Below are positions 26,109 to 35,550 of a stretch of 35,550 nucleotides of DNA, piece by piece. The notes beneath the pieces are model-generated. The model was not told the origin of the DNA, ran no database searches, and saw only the letters and a program-made list of their open reading frames with translations. Origin of the DNA: Candidatus Bipolaricaulis sp. (lineage in GTDB: Bacteria; Bipolaricaulota; Bipolaricaulia; UBA7950; UBA9294); the NCBI GenBank assembly GCA_028713635.1, contig JAQTNX010000007.1:1-35550 (forward strand), given 5' to 3'. The first letter of the stretch is position 1. The number at the start of each line of letters is the position of its first letter. The position numbers were made by a program, and so were the translations under genes.

Positions 26109-27665
26109 TTACGCCGAGGCCGCTTGGAACTCCGATCGGAACCGGTCCACAGCGCTCTTCACCGGCAGAATCAGCGACTGCCCAAGCGGGCAGAGCGACG
26201 TCGCCTGCATCGTACGCGCAATGTCGACCAACCGATCCACGTCGCCCGGGCTCGCGTTCCCCGTCCGGATGGCCTCGGAGAGCTGGACGAGCGCGGCAGT
26301 CCCCGTGCGACACGGAGCGCACTGCCCGCACGACTCGTGCCGGAAGAACCGCAGGATCCCGTGCAAGAGCTCGACGATCGACGTGTCCTCGTCGACCACG
26401 AGGATCGCCCCCGACCCCAGCACGCCCGCGTACTCCTTGAGCCCGTCGAAGTCCATCGCAACGTCCAGCTGCGACTCATCGACGAACCCTCCCGCCGCGC
26501 CGCCGATCAGCGCTGCCTTGAACCTCTTCCCGCCGCGGACTCCGCCGCCACATTCCCAGATGATCCTACGCAGCGGCGTCCCCATCTCCACTTCGACCAG
26601 CCCTGGGGCTTCGACGTGGCCGAGGATCGTGTACACCTTGGTGCCGGGGCACGAGGCCGTTCCGAACGATCGGAACCACTCGGCGCCGCGCACGACGATC
26701 GGAGGGACGTTGGCCAACGTCTCGACGTTGTTCACGACCGTCGGGCGGGCCCAGAGCCCCACCGCGCCGGGGTACGGCGGCTTCAATCGTGGGTAGCCGC
26801 GCTTCCCCTCGATCGACTCGATGAGCGCGGTCTCTTCGCCGCACACGTACGCGCCCGCCCCCTTCTTGACCTCGACGTCGAATGAGAACGACGCGCCGAG
26901 GATCGAGTCGCCGAGAAGACCCGCAGCACGGGCGTCGTCGATCGCCTTCTGCATGCGCCGGATCGAGAGCGCGTACTCGCCGCGGATGTAGACATAGCCT
27001 TTCGTGGCGCCCACGGCGTAGCCGGCCAGCATGATCCCCTCAAGGAGCCGATGGGGATCCCCCTCCAGAATCAGCCGGTCTTTGAACGTCCCCGGCTCTC
27101 CTTCGTCGGCGTTGCAGACGATGTACTTGACCTCACCCGGCGCCGTGAACCCCCACTTCATGCCGGTCGGGAACCCCGCGCCGCCTCGTCCGCGCAGCCC
27201 CGATTGCTTCACGAGCGCCACCACGTTCGCGGGGCTCATCCCGGTTTCGATCACGTGGGCGATCCCTTCGTACGCTCCAGCGGCGATCGCCTCGTCGAGG
27301 TTCTCCGGGTCGATGACGCCGCAGTTGCGTAGAACGATGCGGGACCGCTCGCCCAAGGCCGTCATCGTCGCCGATCGTCGGGCAATCCGCAGGCGACGCA
27401 CCGGGCGTCCTTTGACCAGGTGCTCCTCGACGATCTCCTTCACGTCGGAGACCGCGACGCGCCCGTACGCGACCCCGTCAGGATGGACGACGAGAATGAC
27501 GCCGTGCCCTGCGATTCCGGGATCCCCGGTCTCGATCACCTGGACTTCCTCGCTGAGTCCGCGCTCGGCGAGCGCGGCGCGCAGAGCCCGTTGTACGTCT
27601 CGCACGCCCGCGAGAAGCGCCTCGTCGTTCACCGACACGAGTACGTGGGTTCTAGCGAGTCGCAT
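26109..27665 (-). CDS. Second NuoF/HoxF-like NADH-binding flavoprotein subunit with Cys-less N-terminal thioredoxin-like domain
   Basis: 'GLRGRGGAGFPTGMKWGF', 'CNADEGEPGTFKDR', 'HESCGQCAPCRTG...TSLCPLGQ' (FMN/NAD site and [4Fe-4S]); N-terminus 'THVLVSVNDEALLAGVRD..VIETGDPGIAGHGVILVVHPDGVAYG'. Confidence 0.92.
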   Translation of the reverse strand: MRLARTHVLVSVNDEALLAGVRDVQRALRAALAERGLSEEVQVIETGDPGIAGHGVILVVHPDGVAYGRVAVSDVKEIVEEHLVKGRPVRRLRIARRSATMTALGERSRIVLRNCGVIDPENLDEAIAAGAYEGIAHVIETGMSPANVVALVKQSGLRGRGGAGFPTGMKWGFTAPGEVKYIVCNADEGEPGTFKDRLILEGDPHRLLEGIMLAGYAVGATKGYVYIRGEYALSIRRMQKAIDDARAAGLLGDSILGASFSFDVEVKKGAGAYVCGEETALIESIEGKRGYPRLKPPYPGAVGLWARPTVVNNVETLANVPPIVVRGAEWFRSFGTASCPGTKVYTILGHVEAPGLVEVEMGTPLRRIIWECGGGVRGGKRFKAALIGGAAGGFVDESQLDVAMDFDGLKEYAGVLGSGAILVVDEDTSIVELLHGILRFFRHESCGQCAPCRTGTAALVQLSEAIRTGNASPGDVDRLVDIARTMQATSLCPLGQSLILPVKSAVDRFRSEFQAASA

Positions 27666-28113
27666 CGTCCCTCCCGAGTCGGTCGAGGATCGCAGCGACG
27701 CGCTCCGCCGTGAGGTTTCCATAGAGCTCCTCGTCGATCATCATCGCCGGCGCGACCCCGCACACGCCCAAGCAGCTCGTGCTCTCCAGCGTGAACACGC
27801 CGTCCGCTGTGGTCTCGCCGACCTCCACGCCGAGGTACCGACGGAGCACGTCCAGCAGCGTCTCCGCCCCCATCAGCAAGCATGGAGGTGACTCGCACAC
27901 CCGGATGATCCGTCGCCCGCGCGGCTTGAGACTGAACATCGAGTAGAACGTCGCCGTGCCGACGACGTCGGACAGCGGGGCGCCGACGTGCTCCGCCGCC
28001 GACCGGAGCGCCTCGGGGGTCAAGTACCGTCTCGGCTCGGCGTCCTGCAGGTCATGCAGGATGTCGAGCAGGTACTCGGCCGACCGAGGGTACTTCTCCA
28101 ACAGGGTTCTCAC
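27652..28113 (-). CDS. Second NuoE/HoxE-like [2Fe-2S] subunit
   Basis: 'VGTATFYSMFSLKPRGRRIIRVCESPPCLLMGAETLL..STSCLGVCGVAPAMMIDEELYGNL'; 14-nt overlap with the NuoF-like gene. Confidence 0.92.
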   Translation of the reverse strand: MRTLLEKYPRSAEYLLDILHDLQDAEPRRYLTPEALRSAAEHVGAPLSDVVGTATFYSMFSLKPRGRRIIRVCESPPCLLMGAETLLDVLRRYLGVEVGETTADGVFTLESTSCLGVCGVAPAMMIDEELYGNLTAERVAAILDRLGRDDATR

Positions 28114-28565
28114 GCATCCTCCTCGCTTGATTCCACCGCCGCGGATCTCAACCAGGCTTGCACTGCCTCGACGGCTTCGGGCAACGCCTTCTCCCCCTCC
28201 GGGCTGAGCCGCTCGGCTACATCAAACAGGCGACCGGGCACGGCAAGAAGCCACGCATCGGGAGCGCGGCCGAAGACGCGCTCGGTCCAGTCGAGCAAAG
28301 CCTCGGGGGACACGGCGTGGCCCAGACCATGCCCGCGTGCCGGCCGGATCCGCCGAACGAGCGTCCCCGCTTCCCCGGCGACGGCGGCGTCGACGAACAA
28401 TACGCGATCGGCGGTCCTCAGGCGGAGGGCAAGTTCCGGCGTCAGCTGGGCGACGCCGATGGCGTCCGCAGACGGCACCGGGCCGAGCTCCGCCACCACG
28501 CGGGGCCCAATCCCGTCGTCGCCCCGCAGCGGATTCCCGATCCCGATCACGAGGTCCACGTCCAC
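28110..28565 (-). CDS. Hydrogenase maturation endopeptidase (HyaD/HycI/HoxW family)
   Basis: 'LVIGIGNPLRGDDGIGPRVVAEL', 'RVLFVDAA'; located directly downstream of the large subunit. Confidence 0.9.
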   Translation of the reverse strand: MDVDLVIGIGNPLRGDDGIGPRVVAELGPVPSADAIGVAQLTPELALRLRTADRVLFVDAAVAGEAGTLVRRIRPARGHGLGHAVSPEALLDWTERVFGRAPDAWLLAVPGRLFDVAERLSPEGEKALPEAVEAVQAWLRSAAVESSEEDA

Positions 28566-28581: not shown

Positions 28582-30000
28582 CTACTCCTGACAGAGCGTC
28601 GTGCGGCGGCCGTCCGCCTCGACGATGTCGAGGCGAAGCGGCATGTGTCCCACGGCGTGCACCGAGCAGGACAGGCACGGATCGTACGCCCGGATGCCCC
28701 CTTCGATCCGGTTCAGGATCCCCTCGGTCACCTTGCCCTTCTTGATGTACGTCTTGGCGATCTCGCGCACCGCCCGGTTCATGGCCAGGTTGTTGTGCCC
28801 CGTCGAGACGATGAAGTTCGCCTTCTCGATCACACCGTTCTTGTCGACGTGATAGTGGTGGATCAGCGTCCCGCGCGGAGCTTCGTGAACGCCCACACCC
28901 TCGAGCTCGTTAATGCCCGCTTCGGCCCGGACGTGCGGCGACAGGATCGACGCGTCCGCGAGCACGACCTCCATCTGCTCGATCGCGCCAAGCATCTCCA
29001 GCAGGCGAGCATAGTGGTAGTCAAACACGCGTCCCGAACGCTTCTTCTCGCCGGCGCGGAACTCCTCGAGCTCCCGGTCCGCCATCGGCGTTCCAAACCG
29101 GTCGCAGACGTTGACGCGCCCCAAGGGGCCGACCCGGTACATGCCCTCCGGGTATCCCATCGGCTCGTAGTGCGGGAATTTCAGGTAGGTCCACGGCTCC
29201 GACGCTTCCTTGATGATCGTCGCGTACTGCGACGGGTCGAGCGCCGGGACGATCGCCTTCCCCTTCATGTCGACGAGCCGAAGGACTCCAGTGTAGTGCT
29301 CCCAGAGTCCGTCCGGGGTGACGAGCCCCAGGTACATGCTGTCGAAGGCGCCGAGCAGGTTGCGCAGCTCGGCGGACGCGAACGCCTTCTTGTACAGCGC
29401 CAGGGTCTCGAGAATGGTCGCCTTCGCCTCGGGGAGGTGCGAGACGATCCACGCGCGGTTCTCCGCCGACAGCGGCTGGTGCACGCCGCCGGGGACGGCC
29501 CACGCGGGGTGGATCCTCTTTCCGCCGAGGCGGTCGATGACCTCCTGCCCGAACGCGCGCAGCCGGATCCCCTTTCGAGCCAGCTCGGGGTTTGCCGCGA
29601 CCAGGCCGACAACGTTGCGTGTAGCGGGGTCGGCGTCCCATCCAAGGAGGAAGTCGGGAGCCGAGAGGTAGAAGAAGCTCAGCGCGTGCGACTGCACGAA
29701 CTGCCCTAGGTTCATCAGGCGTCGGAGAAGCTCGGCGGTCCTCGGAATCCGCACAGCGAGGATGGCGTCGCACGCCTTGGCCGAGGCCAGGATGTGGCTC
29801 ACGGGGCAGATCCCACAGATGCGCGCCGTCAAGCCCGGCATCTCCCAGAGCGTCCGGCCCTCGCAGAACTTCTCGAACCCGCGCAGTTCGGTGACGTGGA
29901 ACTGCGCGTCGCGCACGTCACCCTTCTCGTCGAGGAACACGCTGATCTTGCCGTGTCCTTCGATCCGGGTCACCGGCTCGATATGGATTTCGCGTTGCAT
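28582..30000 (-). CDS. hoxH: [NiFe] hydrogenase large subunit (HoxH-like, group 3)
   Basis: L1 '[11 protein letters not shown]', L2 '[33 protein letters not shown]' with an uncleaved C-terminal extension; N-terminal '[15 protein letters not shown]'. Confidence 0.95.
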
Positions 30001-30010
30001 GCCTCTCCTC

Positions 30011-30547
30011 CTACCCGAACTTGAGATCCGCACCGGCTAGTTCCGGCGTCTTCCCATCGAGAAGCGCCAGCACCGCCTTGGCGATCAGCCCCGCCGGCGG
30101 CGGACAGCCGTGCAGGAAGTAGTCCACCGGGATCACTTCGTGCAGCGGGCGGACCCGCTCGAGCAGCCGTGGGACCACTTCGTACGGAAGCGCCCCGTTC
30201 GTCGTCCGCGATGTTCCGTAGATCTCCTCAATCAGTTCCCTCGGCGGGATCCCGTTCCGCAGCGCTGGAACGTTCCCCGTCACGGCGCAGTCCCCGAGCG
30301 AGATCACGATCTTCGACTTCGCGCGCACCGTGCGAGCCAGCTCGAGCTGCTCCTCGTTCCCGATCGCACCTTCGACGAGCGTCACGTCGACCCCGCCCTC
30401 CGGGAAGACCTTGAGGTCCGTGATCGGGCTGTTGCAGAACTCGACTCGGCCCGCGAGGTCAATCAGCACTTCGTCAATGTCAAGAAGCGACATGTGACAC
30501 CCGGCACAGCCGCTGAACCAGACGGTGGCCACTTTCACCTTACCCAC
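30011..30547 (-). CDS. hoxY: [NiFe] hydrogenase small subunit (HoxY-like)
   Basis: '[17 protein letters not shown]', '[17 protein letters not shown]', '[16 protein letters not shown]': proximal [4Fe-4S] ligands. Confidence 0.95.
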
Positions 30548-31238
30548 GGGCCCTCCTTTCCGTCAGTTCCGCCACGAGGTCCGGGTGCTTGCGCATCTCG
30601 GCGTTGCTCGCACCCTTGCGGGCAATCGCCCCGGTCGGGCACACCTCGACGCACTTGCCGCAGCTTGTGCACGACTCGGCGGTTCCCCACGGCACGGCGA
30701 GATCGGTGATCACCCGCACGGTCGCGCCGCGCTCGGCGAAGCCCCACGTGTGCGCACCTTCGACTTCCTGGCACACACGCACACACCGTCCGCAGAGCAC
30801 GCAGCGATCGCGATCGATGAGGAAGCGCGGGTGCGTCGCGTCGACGCGCTCGCGCCGGTACGTGTACGGAACGCGAACCGAGTGCATCCCAAGCTCGCAC
30901 GCGAGGTCCTGCAGCTCGCACCCTCCGTTGGAAACGCAGAACGAGCAGACGTGGTTGCCCTCGGCAAACAGAAGCTCAAGGATCGTGCGGCGGTACGCGC
31001 GCACGGTTTCCGTCTGCGTACCGATCTCCATTCCGTCCGCGACCTTCGTGGTGCAGGACGTGACGAGCTGCCCGTACAGGTCGACGATGCATAGCCGGCA
31101 CGCCCCGACGTCCCTCAGGCCGTCGAGGTGGCAGAGGGTCGGAATGTGAATCCCGTTCTCCTCCGCCACCTCAAGGATCGTCTTGCCCGGGGCGGCCAGG
31201 ATCGTCCGTCCGTCGATCTTCACCCTCAGTTTGTCCAC
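30540..31238 (-). CDS. hoxU: Diaphorase subunit HoxU-like (NuoG N-terminal-like ferredoxin domains)
   Basis: 'CHLDGLRDVGACRLCIVDLYGQLVTSC' [2Fe-2S], 'EGNHVCSFCVSNGGCELQDLA', 'CVLCGRCVRVC', 'SCTSCGKCVEVCPTGA'. GTG start at 31238 with GGAGG RBS (ORF track over-extends). Confidence 0.92.
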   Translation of the reverse strand: MDKLRVKIDGRTILAAPGKTILEVAEENGIHIPTLCHLDGLRDVGACRLCIVDLYGQLVTSCTTKVADGMEIGTQTETVRAYRRTILELLFAEGNHVCSFCVSNGGCELQDLACELGMHSVRVPYTYRRERVDATHPRFLIDRDRCVLCGRCVRVCQEVEGAHTWGFAERGATVRVITDLAVPWGTAESCTSCGKCVEVCPTGAIARKGASNAEMRKHPDLVAELTERRARG

Positions 31239-31288
31239 CAGATCGCCTCCATCGGCGAGGTCCCGAACCCCCGGGCACTCGCCAAGAC

Positions 31289-34200
31289 CTACCGCGTCGT
31301 CGCCCCCGCGGCCTCCGCCGCAGACGACTCGCAGCACGCGCCGTCTTCCGTCTGCTTCCGATCGCAGTGCAGGCATCGGCGCGCTTCCTCCATCGCCTGC
31401 TCCTTCGCAAACCGCCCCCGAACCTCGGCGAACGAGTGGATGCGCGTTCGCACGTCCGCCATCGGCGGCACGGCGCGATCCAGCTCTTGGGTGTAGGCGT
31501 CTTCGTCGTAGCTCGTGGCCACCTCGACCCGCTCCTCGGGCTCGAAGGCTCCGGGTCCGCCGAGGAACCGGTCGATGGCGACCGCCGCTCGGCGTCCGGC
31601 CCCGATTGCTTCCACGACCGTCGCGGGTCCGGTCGTCGCATCCCCGCCGGCGAAGATCCCTGGACGGCTGGTCCGCATGGTCACAGGATCGACAACCACC
31701 AGACCGCCCTTCGCAACCTCAATCCCCGCGCTCCGGAGGAGTTCCCCGGTCGCCTCCTGCCCGACGGCAACGATGACCATGGATGCAGGGAGCACGATCT
31801 CCGGCCGGTCCGACGGCACCGGCCGCCGCCGTCCCGACGCGTCGAACGGCCCGGCCGCCATTGAAGCGCACCGCAGTCCCTCGACGCGTTCGCCGCCTAC
31901 CACTCCGACCGGCGAGGTCATGTCGAGGATCTCGACGCCCTCCTCGATGGCCTCGGCGATCTCCTCGGGAGACGCGGGCATGTCGGCCCTCGCTCGGCGG
32001 TAGGCGATGGTCACGCGTTTCGCTCCGAGCCGGAGCGCCGCGCGCGCCGAGTCGATGGCCGAGTTGCCTCCTCCGATCACGACCACCTCGTCTCCGACCT
32101 CCGAACCGCCGTCCACGTGGATGCCTTTCAGGAACTCGACGCCGGTCACGACGCCGCGCGGAAGTGTTTCGCCCAGCGCGACCGTTTGGCCCTTCATCGC
32201 TCCCGTCGCGACGAACACCGCCGCGTAGCCCTCTGCGAAGAGCTGCTCGAGGTCGTCGACCGCAGACAAGAGCTCGATTCGCACGCCAGCCTTCACGATG
32301 CGATCGATGTCCGCCTTCAGGATGTCACGCGGCAGGCGATAGGCGGGGATTCCCGTAGCCATCGTTCCCCCCGCGATCGGCAGCGCCTCGAACAGGACCG
32401 GCTCGTACCCCAGCTGCGCCAGGAAGTACCCGCAGGTGAGCCCGGCGGGACCCGACCCGACAACCGCCACGCGCAGCCCGTTCCGATCGACGGGCTTCGG
32501 GCCGGCAAGCTTGTGCTCCATCGCGTAGTCCGCCATGAACCGCTTCAGGTCGCGAATCGCCACCGATTCCTCGATTTGCGCACGCTGGCACTTCGTCTCG
32601 CAGAATGCGTAGCAGACGCGGCCGCAGATTCCGGGAAGCGGGTTGGTCTTCATGTGAACGTCGAACGCCTTCGCGAAGTCCCCGTTCGAAAGGTGAGCCA
32701 CGTACGCCGGGACATCGACGTGGGCCGGGCAGCTCGCCTCGCACGGAGCCACGAACAACGCCGCGCACACGGCGGCGGGACACGTCTTGTTCTGAATGTG
32801 CGCCTCGTACTCGTGGCGGAAGTACCGCAGCGTGCTCAGAACTGGATTCGGCGCCGTCTGACCCAGGCCGCACAAAGACGATCGCCGGATCGTGTGCGCC
32901 AGCTCCTCCAGAAGGGCCAAGTCCTCCATCGACCCTTCCCCGCGCGTGATCCGATCGAGAATGTCGAGCATCCGAACGAGCCCGCTCCGGCATGGGACGC
33001 ACTGTCCGCACGACTCCGAAGCCGTGAACTCCACGAAGTACCGCGCGAGGTTCACCATGCAGGTGTCCTCGTCCAGCACGATGACTCCGCCCGACCCGAC
33101 GATCGCGCCCAGCTCCTTCAGCGTCTCGTAGCTGATCGGCGTGTTCAGGTGCTGAACGGGGATGCAGCCGCCGGACGGCCCGCCCGTCTGGACGGCCTTC
33201 AGCTTCTTCCCGTTCGGCACACCTCCGCCGATGTCGTAGATCAGTTCGCCGAGCGTCGTTCCCATCGGAACCTCGACGAGACCCGTGTTGCGCACGTTGC
33301 CGGACAGCGCGAACACCTTCGTGCCCTTGCTCTCCCCCGTTCCGATCGATGCGAACCACGCCGAGCCGCGAGCGATGATGTGCCGAACATTCGCATAGGT
33401 TTCGACGTTGTTCAGGAGCGTTGGCAACTGCCACATGCCGGACGTTGAGGGGTAGGGAGGACGCGGATGCGGAACGCCGCGCCGACCCTCCAGAGACGCG
33501 AGGAGCGCCGTCTCCTCGCCGCAGACGAACGCCCCAGCCCCGACGCGGATCTCGATGTCGAATGAGAAGGCCGTGTCGAAGATTCGCTCGCCCAGGAGAC
33601 CCAGTTTCCGCGCCGCGTCCAACGCCGAACGCAACCGACTGATGGCGAGCGGGTACTCGGCGCGCACATACACGTAGCCGCGCTGCGCCCCCACCGCGTA
33701 GGCGGCAATCGCCAACCCTTCGATCACGGTGTGCGGATCTCCCTCAAGAACGGCTCGATCCATGAACGCTCCGGGATCGCCCTCGTCGGCGTTGCACACA
33801 ACGACCTTCTTCGGCGACGCCTCGCGGCGGACGAAGTCCCACTTCGTTCCGGTCGGGAAGCCCGCGCCGCCGCGTCCTCGCAGCCCGGACGCCTTCATCT
33901 CGGCCACAACGCCCTCGGGGGTCATGGTCGTCACGGCCTTGCCCAGCGCCTCGTACCCGCCGGCTCCGATGTACTCCTCGATGCTCTCGGGGTTGATGGC
34001 GCCGCAGTTCGCGAGGACGATCTTCATCTGCTTCTCGAAGAACGGGATCGATCGATGCTCGCGGATGATCTGATCCGCCGTCTCCGATCGGAACAGGAGT
34101 CGCTCGACCACCCGTCCCTTGAGGAAGTGCTCGGTAACGATTTCTGCGACGTCCGACGCCGCGACGTTCTTGTAGAGAACACCTTCGGGGTACACGAGAA

Positions 34201-34369
34201 CGAGAGGGCCGTGCTGGCACGGTCCCATGCAACCCGTCTCGACGATCCGAACCTCGTCCGTGAGGAGCTGGGTCTCGAGCTGCCGGACCAGTTCCTCCTT
34301 CATTTCGAGGCTGTGGGACGACATGCACGCACCGCCCGAACAGACCAGAACTTCCAAACGACCGGCCAC
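31289..34369 (-). CDS. Fusion: HoxF/NuoF-like NADH-binding subunit + GltD/NfnB-like NAD(P)-dependent flavin oxidoreductase
   Basis: 1026 aa single ORF. N-half: 'CSGGACMSS..TGCMGPCQHG', 'GLRGRGGAGFPTGTKWDF', 'SESCGQCVPCRSG'. C-half: 'PCEASCPAHVDVPAYV..GICGRVCYAFCETKCQRAQIEESVAIRDLKRF', 'VAVVGSGPAGLTCGYFLAQLGY', 'VVVIGGGNSAIDSARAALRLGAKRVTIAYRR', 'GIFAGGDATTGPATVVEAI'. Confidence 0.95.
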   Translation of the reverse strand: MAGRLEVLVCSGGACMSSHSLEMKEELVRQLETQLLTDEVRIVETGCMGPCQHGPLVLVYPEGVLYKNVAASDVAEIVTEHFLKGRVVERLLFRSETADQIIREHRSIPFFEKQMKIVLANCGAINPESIEEYIGAGGYEALGKAVTTMTPEGVVAEMKASGLRGRGGAGFPTGTKWDFVRREASPKKVVVCNADEGDPGAFMDRAVLEGDPHTVIEGLAIAAYAVGAQRGYVYVRAEYPLAISRLRSALDAARKLGLLGERIFDTAFSFDIEIRVGAGAFVCGEETALLASLEGRRGVPHPRPPYPSTSGMWQLPTLLNNVETYANVRHIIARGSAWFASIGTGESKGTKVFALSGNVRNTGLVEVPMGTTLGELIYDIGGGVPNGKKLKAVQTGGPSGGCIPVQHLNTPISYETLKELGAIVGSGGVIVLDEDTCMVNLARYFVEFTASESCGQCVPCRSGLVRMLDILDRITRGEGSMEDLALLEELAHTIRRSSLCGLGQTAPNPVLSTLRYFRHEYEAHIQNKTCPAAVCAALFVAPCEASCPAHVDVPAYVAHLSNGDFAKAFDVHMKTNPLPGICGRVCYAFCETKCQRAQIEESVAIRDLKRFMADYAMEHKLAGPKPVDRNGLRVAVVGSGPAGLTCGYFLAQLGYEPVLFEALPIAGGTMATGIPAYRLPRDILKADIDRIVKAGVRIELLSAVDDLEQLFAEGYAAVFVATGAMKGQTVALGETLPRGVVTGVEFLKGIHVDGGSEVGDEVVVIGGGNSAIDSARAALRLGAKRVTIAYRRARADMPASPEEIAEAIEEGVEILDMTSPVGVVGGERVEGLRCASMAAGPFDASGRRRPVPSDRPEIVLPASMVIVAVGQEATGELLRSAGIEVAKGGLVVVDPVTMRTSRPGIFAGGDATTGPATVVEAIGAGRRAAVAIDRFLGGPGAFEPEERVEVATSYDEDAYTQELDRAVPPMADVRTRIHSFAEVRGRFAKEQAMEEARRCLHCDRKQTEDGACCESSAAEAAGATTR

Positions 34370-34371
34370 GC

Positions 34372-34746
34372 CTACTCCTTCTCGGCGTCGACGATGGCGA
34401 GCACGTCGCCCTCGACGACCGTCCCGTGGATCACGTGTTCGACGACGACCCGACGCGCCTTCTCGGCGGTCATCCCCCCGTACACCACCTTGGGGCGGTC
34501 GCGCTCGATGACTTCGACGATCGGCTCCTTCGAGGCGAGGCCCTTCTCCCCGGACTGGGTCACGATGACGTCCGTCAGCTTCCGCTTCTCGATCTCGTCC
34601 AGGAACGCGCTCAGGACCTCCCGCGCCCCCGCGGCGATCCCCGACGTGCCCATTCCCACGACGATCTTCACCCGCGCCGCCCCTCCCCGGAGCCGCAGGT
34701 CGTTCTGCACCCGCTCACGGATCTTCCGGAGTTCTTCGAGCTTCAT
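34372..34746 (-). CDS. Thioredoxin-like ferredoxin-fold protein lacking all [2Fe-2S] ligand cysteines
   Basis: 124 aa: MKLEELRKIRERVQNDLRLRGGAARVKIVVGMGTSGIAAGAREVLSAFLDEIEKRKLTDVIVTQSGEKGLASKEPIVEVIERDRPKVVYGGMTAEKARRVVVEHVIHGTVVEGDVL; no Cys in the protein. Confidence 0.88.
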   Translation of the reverse strand: MKLEELRKIRERVQNDLRLRGGAARVKIVVGMGTSGIAAGAREVLSAFLDEIEKRKLTDVIVTQSGEKGLASKEPIVEVIERDRPKVVYGGMTAEKARRVVVEHVIHGTVVEGDVLAIVDAEKE

Positions 34747-34796: not shown

Positions 34797-35309
34797 TCAC
34801 GCTGCAGACGGCTTGGTACCCTCTCGATACGAGTTCAGGATCCTCATCGCCTTCGTCGGGCTGAGGCGTCCGTAGACCTCTTCGTCCACCATCATCACGG
34901 GCGCCAATCCGCACGCCCCGAAGCAGCGGGCGGTGTCGAGGGTGAACAAACCGTCGGGCGTCGTGCGCCCCTCTTCGACGCCAAGCTCCCGCTGGATCCT
35001 CTTCAGGATCTCCGCGCCGCCCTTGACGTAGCAGGCTGTCCCCAGGCACACGGACACGGTGTGCTTTCCAGCTGGGTCGAGGCGAAAGAAGTTGTAGAAG
35101 GTCGCCACGCCGCGCACGTCGCAGAGCGGGAGTTCGAGCTCGGAGGCCACGAAGCGAAGGACGTCAGAAGGCAAGTACCCGTACACGCCCTGCACCTTGT
35201 GGAGAACCTGAATCAGCGGCCCCGGCAGTCCTCTATACTCCTCGACAACCCTCTCGAGCTGCTTGCGCTGTGCCGCGCTGCCCGACGCCACATCGATCAA
35301 TCCCGTCAC
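34797..35309 (-). CDS. NuoE/HoxE-like [2Fe-2S] subunit
   Basis: 'LIQVLHKVQGVYGYLPSDVLRFVASELELPLCDVRGVATFYNFFRL', 'CLGTACYVKGG', 'ARCFGACGLAPVMMVDEEVYG'. GTG start at 35309 with GGAGG RBS chosen; ORF track extends to 35444. Confidence 0.93.
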   Translation of the reverse strand: MTGLIDVASGSAAQRKQLERVVEEYRGLPGPLIQVLHKVQGVYGYLPSDVLRFVASELELPLCDVRGVATFYNFFRLDPAGKHTVSVCLGTACYVKGGAEILKRIQRELGVEEGRTTPDGLFTLDTARCFGACGLAPVMMVDEEVYGRLSPTKAMRILNSYREGTKPSAA

Positions 35310-35550
35310 CTTGTCCTCCGTTTCGCATTCCCATTCCTGAGCCTTCACCGGGCGCGGCGACCGAGGTCTCGACGGGTCGGTCGGCGGCTCACGATCCGCC
35401 GGGTCCCGGGCGGCGATGGTACCGAGTCCGAGGCGATTCCTCATCCCGGAATCTGGGACGCCGCCCCCGGCGGGTCCAACGCCGGCGCCAAGCGTTCCTT
35501 CAGGTAGGATCTCAAGAATCCGATCCCGTCCGGGTGACCGAGCGGAACGT

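Follow-up and report, generated by a model that had tools for sequence, protein, structure and literature searches.

A cysteine-free HndB-type protein, probably a structural subunit, encoded in a NiFe hydrogenase operon of Candidatus Bipolaricaulis

The window analyzed here is a stretch of 35,550 nucleotides from Candidatus Bipolaricaulis sp. (contig JAQTNX010000007.1 of assembly GCA_028713635.1), and all of its genes described below lie on the minus strand. A small gene (34372-34746) is flanked by a NuoE/HydC gene (34797-35444) and a NuoF/HydB gene (31289-34369). It encodes an HndB/HydD-type thioredoxin-like protein of 124 aa, as judged from the ORF, the alignment, an AF2 model and Foldseek, and its ATG at 34746 agrees with the start of most homologues. 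The translation reads MKLEELRKIRERVQNDLRLRGG...VVGMGTSGIAAGAREV...VTQSGEKGLASKEPIVEV... and contains no Cys. The Cys ligands of the thioredoxin-like [2Fe-2S] ferredoxins are absent, and their columns in the alignment hold Ser (GTSGI), Glu (SGEKG) and Ala (GLAS). An earlier note on this DNA had described a 124-aa protein without Cys, with GTSG and SGEKGLAS at the ligand positions, and had expected Cys at three named positions of the family. The ORF and the alignment bear out the description, and relatives do show GT-C-GIA and TG-C-xGL-C. We assign the protein to the HndB/HydD type as a stand-alone thioredoxin-like protein of approximately 120 aa with NuoE and NuoF genes adjoining. In the profile search it matched NF041612 at 3.4e-8, which is under the cut-off of that profile, and gave no match to PF01257. 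It is 29% identical to the N-terminal domains of the window's own NuoF copies. A search of plasmids for characterized relatives found none.

The neighboring genes form a hydrogenase operon. The NuoE/HydC-type [2Fe-2S] subunit (34797-35444; PF01257, 2.3e-49) has its four ligand Cys. HydB and a GltD-type NAD(P)H oxidoreductase form one fusion protein (31289-34369; Pfam, PDB match 7t2r_B at 9e-225), with the oxidoreductase at the C-terminal place where a two-cluster ferredoxin domain is usual. The N-terminal thioredoxin-like domain of this HydB is intact and retains four Cys (CSGGAC...GCMGPC), and therefore the Cys-free HndB is an addition, not a replacement. Also present are a HoxU/HydA-type electron-transfer subunit without H-cluster domain (30540-31376; NF005745 HoxU, 5.7e-99), a NiFe hydrogenase small subunit of 178 aa (30011-30547; PF01058), a large subunit (28582-30033; PF00374), whose closest solved chain is 7t2r_D of the A. 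mobile NiFe-HydABCSL, and a hydrogenase maturation protease (28110-28565; TIGR00072). A second NuoE-type subunit (27652-28113; PF01257, 2.2e-46) is paired with a second NuoF (26109-27722), in which Pfam, the N-terminal sequence and the Cys count reveal no C-terminal ferredoxin domain and an N-terminal thioredoxin-like domain that is likewise Cys-free (VSVNDEALLAG...TGDPGIAG). By its gene content, the operon encodes an A. mobile HydABCSL-like NiFe hydrogenase, not a HydABC [FeFe] enzyme. The earlier note had described the family as usually encoded between NuoE and NuoF in HydABC-type operons. The small gene does lie between these two, but a HydABC [FeFe] type does not hold here, the catalytic subunit being NiFe. 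The NiFe-HydABCSL (NiFe-Bfu) gene set, comprising HydA, HydB, HydC and the small and large NiFe subunits, is complete, although HydA is of the short HoxU type and HydB is extended by the GltD fusion. The second NuoE-NuoF pair is additional. Since the second NuoF has a Cys-free N-terminal domain and lacks a C-terminal ferredoxin domain, one NiFe operon carries two NADH modules, one of bifurcating and one of non-bifurcating type. Coupling of H2 to NAD and ferredoxin by this operon is putative.

A scan of named genomes gave 60 loci, 46 of them Cys-free (two partial) and 14 with the three-Cys motif, one of the latter being a NuoF N-terminal domain. The Cys-free loci belong to Bipolaricaulota, Cloacimonadota, Acidobacteriota/Aminicenantes, WOR-3, Caldisericota, Aerophobetes, Syntrophorhabdales and Spirochaetota. 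The exact Ser/Glu/Ala-or-Ser variant, which was sought in other genomes, recurs across several phyla and was found in Bipolaricaulota, Cloacimonadota, Acidobacteriota, Spirochaetota, Caldisericota, WOR-3, Aerophobetes and Syntrophorhabdales. Approximately 1,480 whole genomes and the named loci yielded 228 non-redundant stand-alone sequences. All three ligand Cys are present in 121 of these and none in 107, with no intermediate (0/228). No Cys occurs anywhere in 104 of the 107 Cys-free domains, and exactly three occur in 116 of the 121 Cys-bearing ones. In the weighted alignment, the Cys-bearing group has 100% Cys in the three ligand columns, whereas the same columns in the main Cys-free group are S (100%), E (96%) and A or S, with Ala in about half. 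The residue after E is K/R in 100% of the main Cys-free group and A/I/M/V in the Cys-bearing group. The main Cys-free clade has fixed a new motif, GTSGIA...TGE[K/R]GL[A/S], and the pattern S-E-A or S-E-S is common to 98/228 homologues. Other replacements are V-N-D and P-S-D (Chloroflexota search), S-S-D and S-G-D (Spirochaetota search) and T-D-E (phylum of L056). The Cys-bearing HndB, the (2Fe-2S) ferredoxin domain-containing protein of HydABC-type operons, is as long as the window protein, sits at the same place in the operon and is similar to it in overall sequence (40-54% identity), but has three invariant Cys where the window protein has none. A His four residues ahead of the first Cys (VHMGTCGIA) is found in 50/121 Cys-bearing HndB (L168, L172-L175, L177 and similar), the others having mostly Gly, and is a possible fourth cluster ligand. 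At L300 (4817-6135), a Cys-bearing and a Cys-free (T-D-E) HndB flank one NuoE, and NuoF genes of both kinds are close by.

The Cys-free genes are under ordinary, strong purifying selection. Relaxed selection was looked for, and the median dN/dS of 35 disjoint close pairs is 0.089 (range 0.012-0.329, the highest pair thus at 0.33). The Cys-bearing genes have a median of 0.064 (23 pairs). Between the window and L004, also Candidatus Bipolaricaulis, dN is 0.18 and dS 0.92. All-pairs dN/dS was dropped in favor of close pairs because deep pairs gave unreliable synonymous distances. The former ligand loop is still tightly constrained in the main clade, as seen in the frequencies of S, E and the adjoining K/R given above. 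A tree of 118 columns, built without the ligand columns and with many deep forks open, needs six changes of Cys state, at least four of them forced by well-supported branches. Chloroflexota V-N-D/P-S-D and Spirochaetota S-S-D sequences nest inside Cys-bearing clades. On this tree, with its 118 columns and open forks, a single origin for the whole Cys-free set was rejected, Cys having been lost several times, not once. The earlier note had considered that close relatives might have Cys-bearing homologues while the Cys-free copy is under relaxed selection. The GTDB family of the window does include such homologues, but they occupy other branches of the tree than the Cys-free ones, and the Cys-free copies are not relaxed.

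The AF2 model predicts a thioredoxin-like fold plus an N-terminal helix, with a mean pLDDT of 83.1, lower in the helix. The best Foldseek match is the NfnB N-terminal domain (9n5u_B, 1.2 A over 89 columns). The N-terminal domains of NfnB (9n5u, 9bp5) and StnB (8oh5) fit at 1.2 A over about 90 columns with 31-40% identity, and the Aquifex thioredoxin-like ferredoxin 1m2d gives a TM of 0.83 normalized by target. The HndB-like N-terminal domain of StnB has three Cys in the alignment. This N-terminal thioredoxin-like (B5) domain of HydB/NfnB/StnB is the closest solved fold, but the window protein is a separate polypeptide and lacks the ligands. In some species HndB is fused to HydB and is therefore a fixed part of the enzyme there. 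A single ORF at L349 contains HndB, the usual HydB thioredoxin domain (TRX) and NuoF, and a single 729-aa ORF at L351 contains an HndB that is Cys-free at the ligand positions, TRX, NuoF and a ferredoxin domain. An HndB-type domain is the sole N-terminal domain of HydB in L344, L345, L347, L348, L350, L352, L353 and L354. At L352 (2864-4747), HydB has a C-terminal ferredoxin domain, and its only N-terminal domain is a Cys-free HndB; it adjoins a 953-aa GltD-type fusion protein. From these domains, L352 is apparently a bifurcating-type enzyme without a B5 cluster.

The role of the peripheral thioredoxin-like [2Fe-2S] domain in HydABC (Bfu) enzymes is disputed. In A. mobile, the HydB N-terminal domain stabilizes the HydC C-terminal domain, release is required for bifurcation, and the B5 cluster was regarded as a remnant with no function in electron transfer (PMC8880783). 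The B5 cluster has also been made part of the mechanism and called conserved in all Bfu enzymes (PMC9304861). This universality fails at the sequence level for L352 and L284-L287, if these are bifurcating as their domain make-up suggests. In L284-L287 (Chloroflexota), HydB has a ferredoxin C-terminus and its N-terminal ligands are down to one Cys, and the HndB there has lost three Cys. Because natural proteins keep the domain and drop the ligands (L352) or the full set of them (L284-L287), they provide a direct way to part the structural from the redox role. By description, the window protein is like HndB/HydD (HydD being about 15 kDa), a small fourth subunit of electron-bifurcating hydrogenases with NuoE-, NuoF- and catalytic subunits (PMC10084766, PMC6288185). 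It has already been proposed for single enzymes that this subunit type is without redox center. HndB of Hnd from Solidesulfovibrio fructosivorans, the fourth of four subunits, probably has none (PMC10084766), and A. woodii HydD was predicted to have no cofactor (PMC6288185). The N-terminal domain of FdsB, from the R. capsulatus formate dehydrogenase, has a thioredoxin-like ferredoxin fold that cannot bind a [2Fe-2S] cluster (PMC7171172); it shares its fold with the window protein, but belongs to a longer subunit, and the enzyme is non-bifurcating. New here are the conserved Cys-free clade, the repeated all-or-none loss and the bifurcating-type HydB without N-terminal cluster ligands. No description of the clade, of such loss or of a paired Cys-free NuoF was found in the open-access literature searched.

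We consider it probable that the 34372-34746 product is an HndB-type subunit without cofactor in the HydBC (NADH/ferredoxin) module of the NiFe hydrogenase, a relative of the HydB N-terminal domain kept as a structural part, possibly a clamp. All cluster Cys were lost and yet the protein is conserved across many phyla; its function is therefore probably a structural one, not the carriage of electrons. The earlier note had suggested a structural, regulatory or assembly role instead of electron transfer, and a non-redox, structural role gains support from the presence of Cys in the family and from the Cys-free copies not being relaxed. By analogy with A. mobile, the protein may dock alongside HydB and the C-terminal [2Fe-2S] domain of HydC, which is mobile. 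There, as a clamp or spacer that carries no electrons, it would stabilize the resting state and let go when the enzyme bifurcates. The conserved Glu-Lys/Arg pair may take the place of the cluster in the loop, contributing to packing or forming a salt bridge. However, HydB of this operon has an intact N-terminal domain of its own, and the clamp role is borrowed from a domain that, in the window's NuoF copies, has the low identity to this protein given above. Against a subunit also speaks A. mobile HydD, provided that HydD belongs to this family: its gene lies in the operon, yet the purified NiFe holoenzyme does not contain it, and a part in maturation or regulation was assumed for it (PMC8880783, PMC9304861). 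The Cys-free protein could, like HydD, be a factor that serves the HydBC module in assembly, maturation or regulation and stays outside the finished enzyme, and the small HATPase-like genes, possible regulators, adjoining in some loci fit this role. But HydB fusions make HndB a fixed enzyme part in some species, and HndB is listed among the four Hnd subunits (PMC10084766). We regard such a factor as unlikely, although assembly and subunit roles are not separable by sequence alone.

The Cys-bearing form itself may never have had a functional electron-transfer cluster, the Cys-free form then being the same structural subunit minus a dispensable non-redox site. The proposals for HndB and A. woodii HydD agree with this, as does the StnB cluster list, which has no N-terminal cluster (PMC10482914) despite the three Cys in our alignment; moreover, only three Cys are available, with the His at a possible fourth place in the 50/121 mentioned. 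The three Cys, however, are invariant in 121/121 and lost only together, which points to a shared cofactor or site, and we hold this explanation to be possible but somewhat unlikely. It is far less probable that a metal or cluster is still bound through Ser/Glu or other non-Cys ligands. Ser and Asp/Glu are rare Fe ligands. S and E are near-invariant in the main Cys-free clade, but its third position is Ala in about half, and the independent lineages with V-N-D, P-S-D, S-S-D, S-G-D and T-D-E have no common ligand set. A decaying gene or sequencing artefact, for which nothing was found apart from the Cys loss itself, is refuted by the sharing of S-E-A/S-E-S among 98/228 homologues and by the dN/dS of 0.089; in addition, the frame is intact and the operon position is kept in many phyla.

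A second NuoF without C-terminal ferredoxin domain and with an almost Cys-free N-terminal domain is present at 48/60 Cys-free vs. 5/34 Cys-bearing loci with enough flank (Fisher 7e-10 on raw counts). However, an independent-pairs test on the tree was not significant, there being 3-4 independent changes, and therefore the coupling was downgraded to an association, most of which phylogeny can explain. In the Chloroflexota, the HndB Cys loss coincides with the loss of most remaining HydB N-terminal ligands (CVDPxC/SRIGxC in Cys-bearing vs. SxDPxC/SRIGDP in Cys-free loci), while the bifurcating-type HydB of the main Cys-free clade retains its four Cys. It is conceivable, though doubtful, that the Cys-free HndB marks a two-headed hydrogenase, in which one NiFe or FeFe catalytic unit would be served by a bifurcating HydB and by a second, non-bifurcating NuoF with a Cys-free N-terminal domain, and the pseudo-ferredoxin domains would keep the NADH modules separate or aligned and determine which of the two is connected. 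A literature search found no double-NuoF hydrogenase. Small HATPase-like genes adjoin HndB in some loci. In three Spirochaetota loci (L295, L296 and L335), with no hydrogenase gene recognized among the neighboring ORFs, the set consists of NuoE, a small HATPase-like gene, a Cys-free HndB and NuoF.
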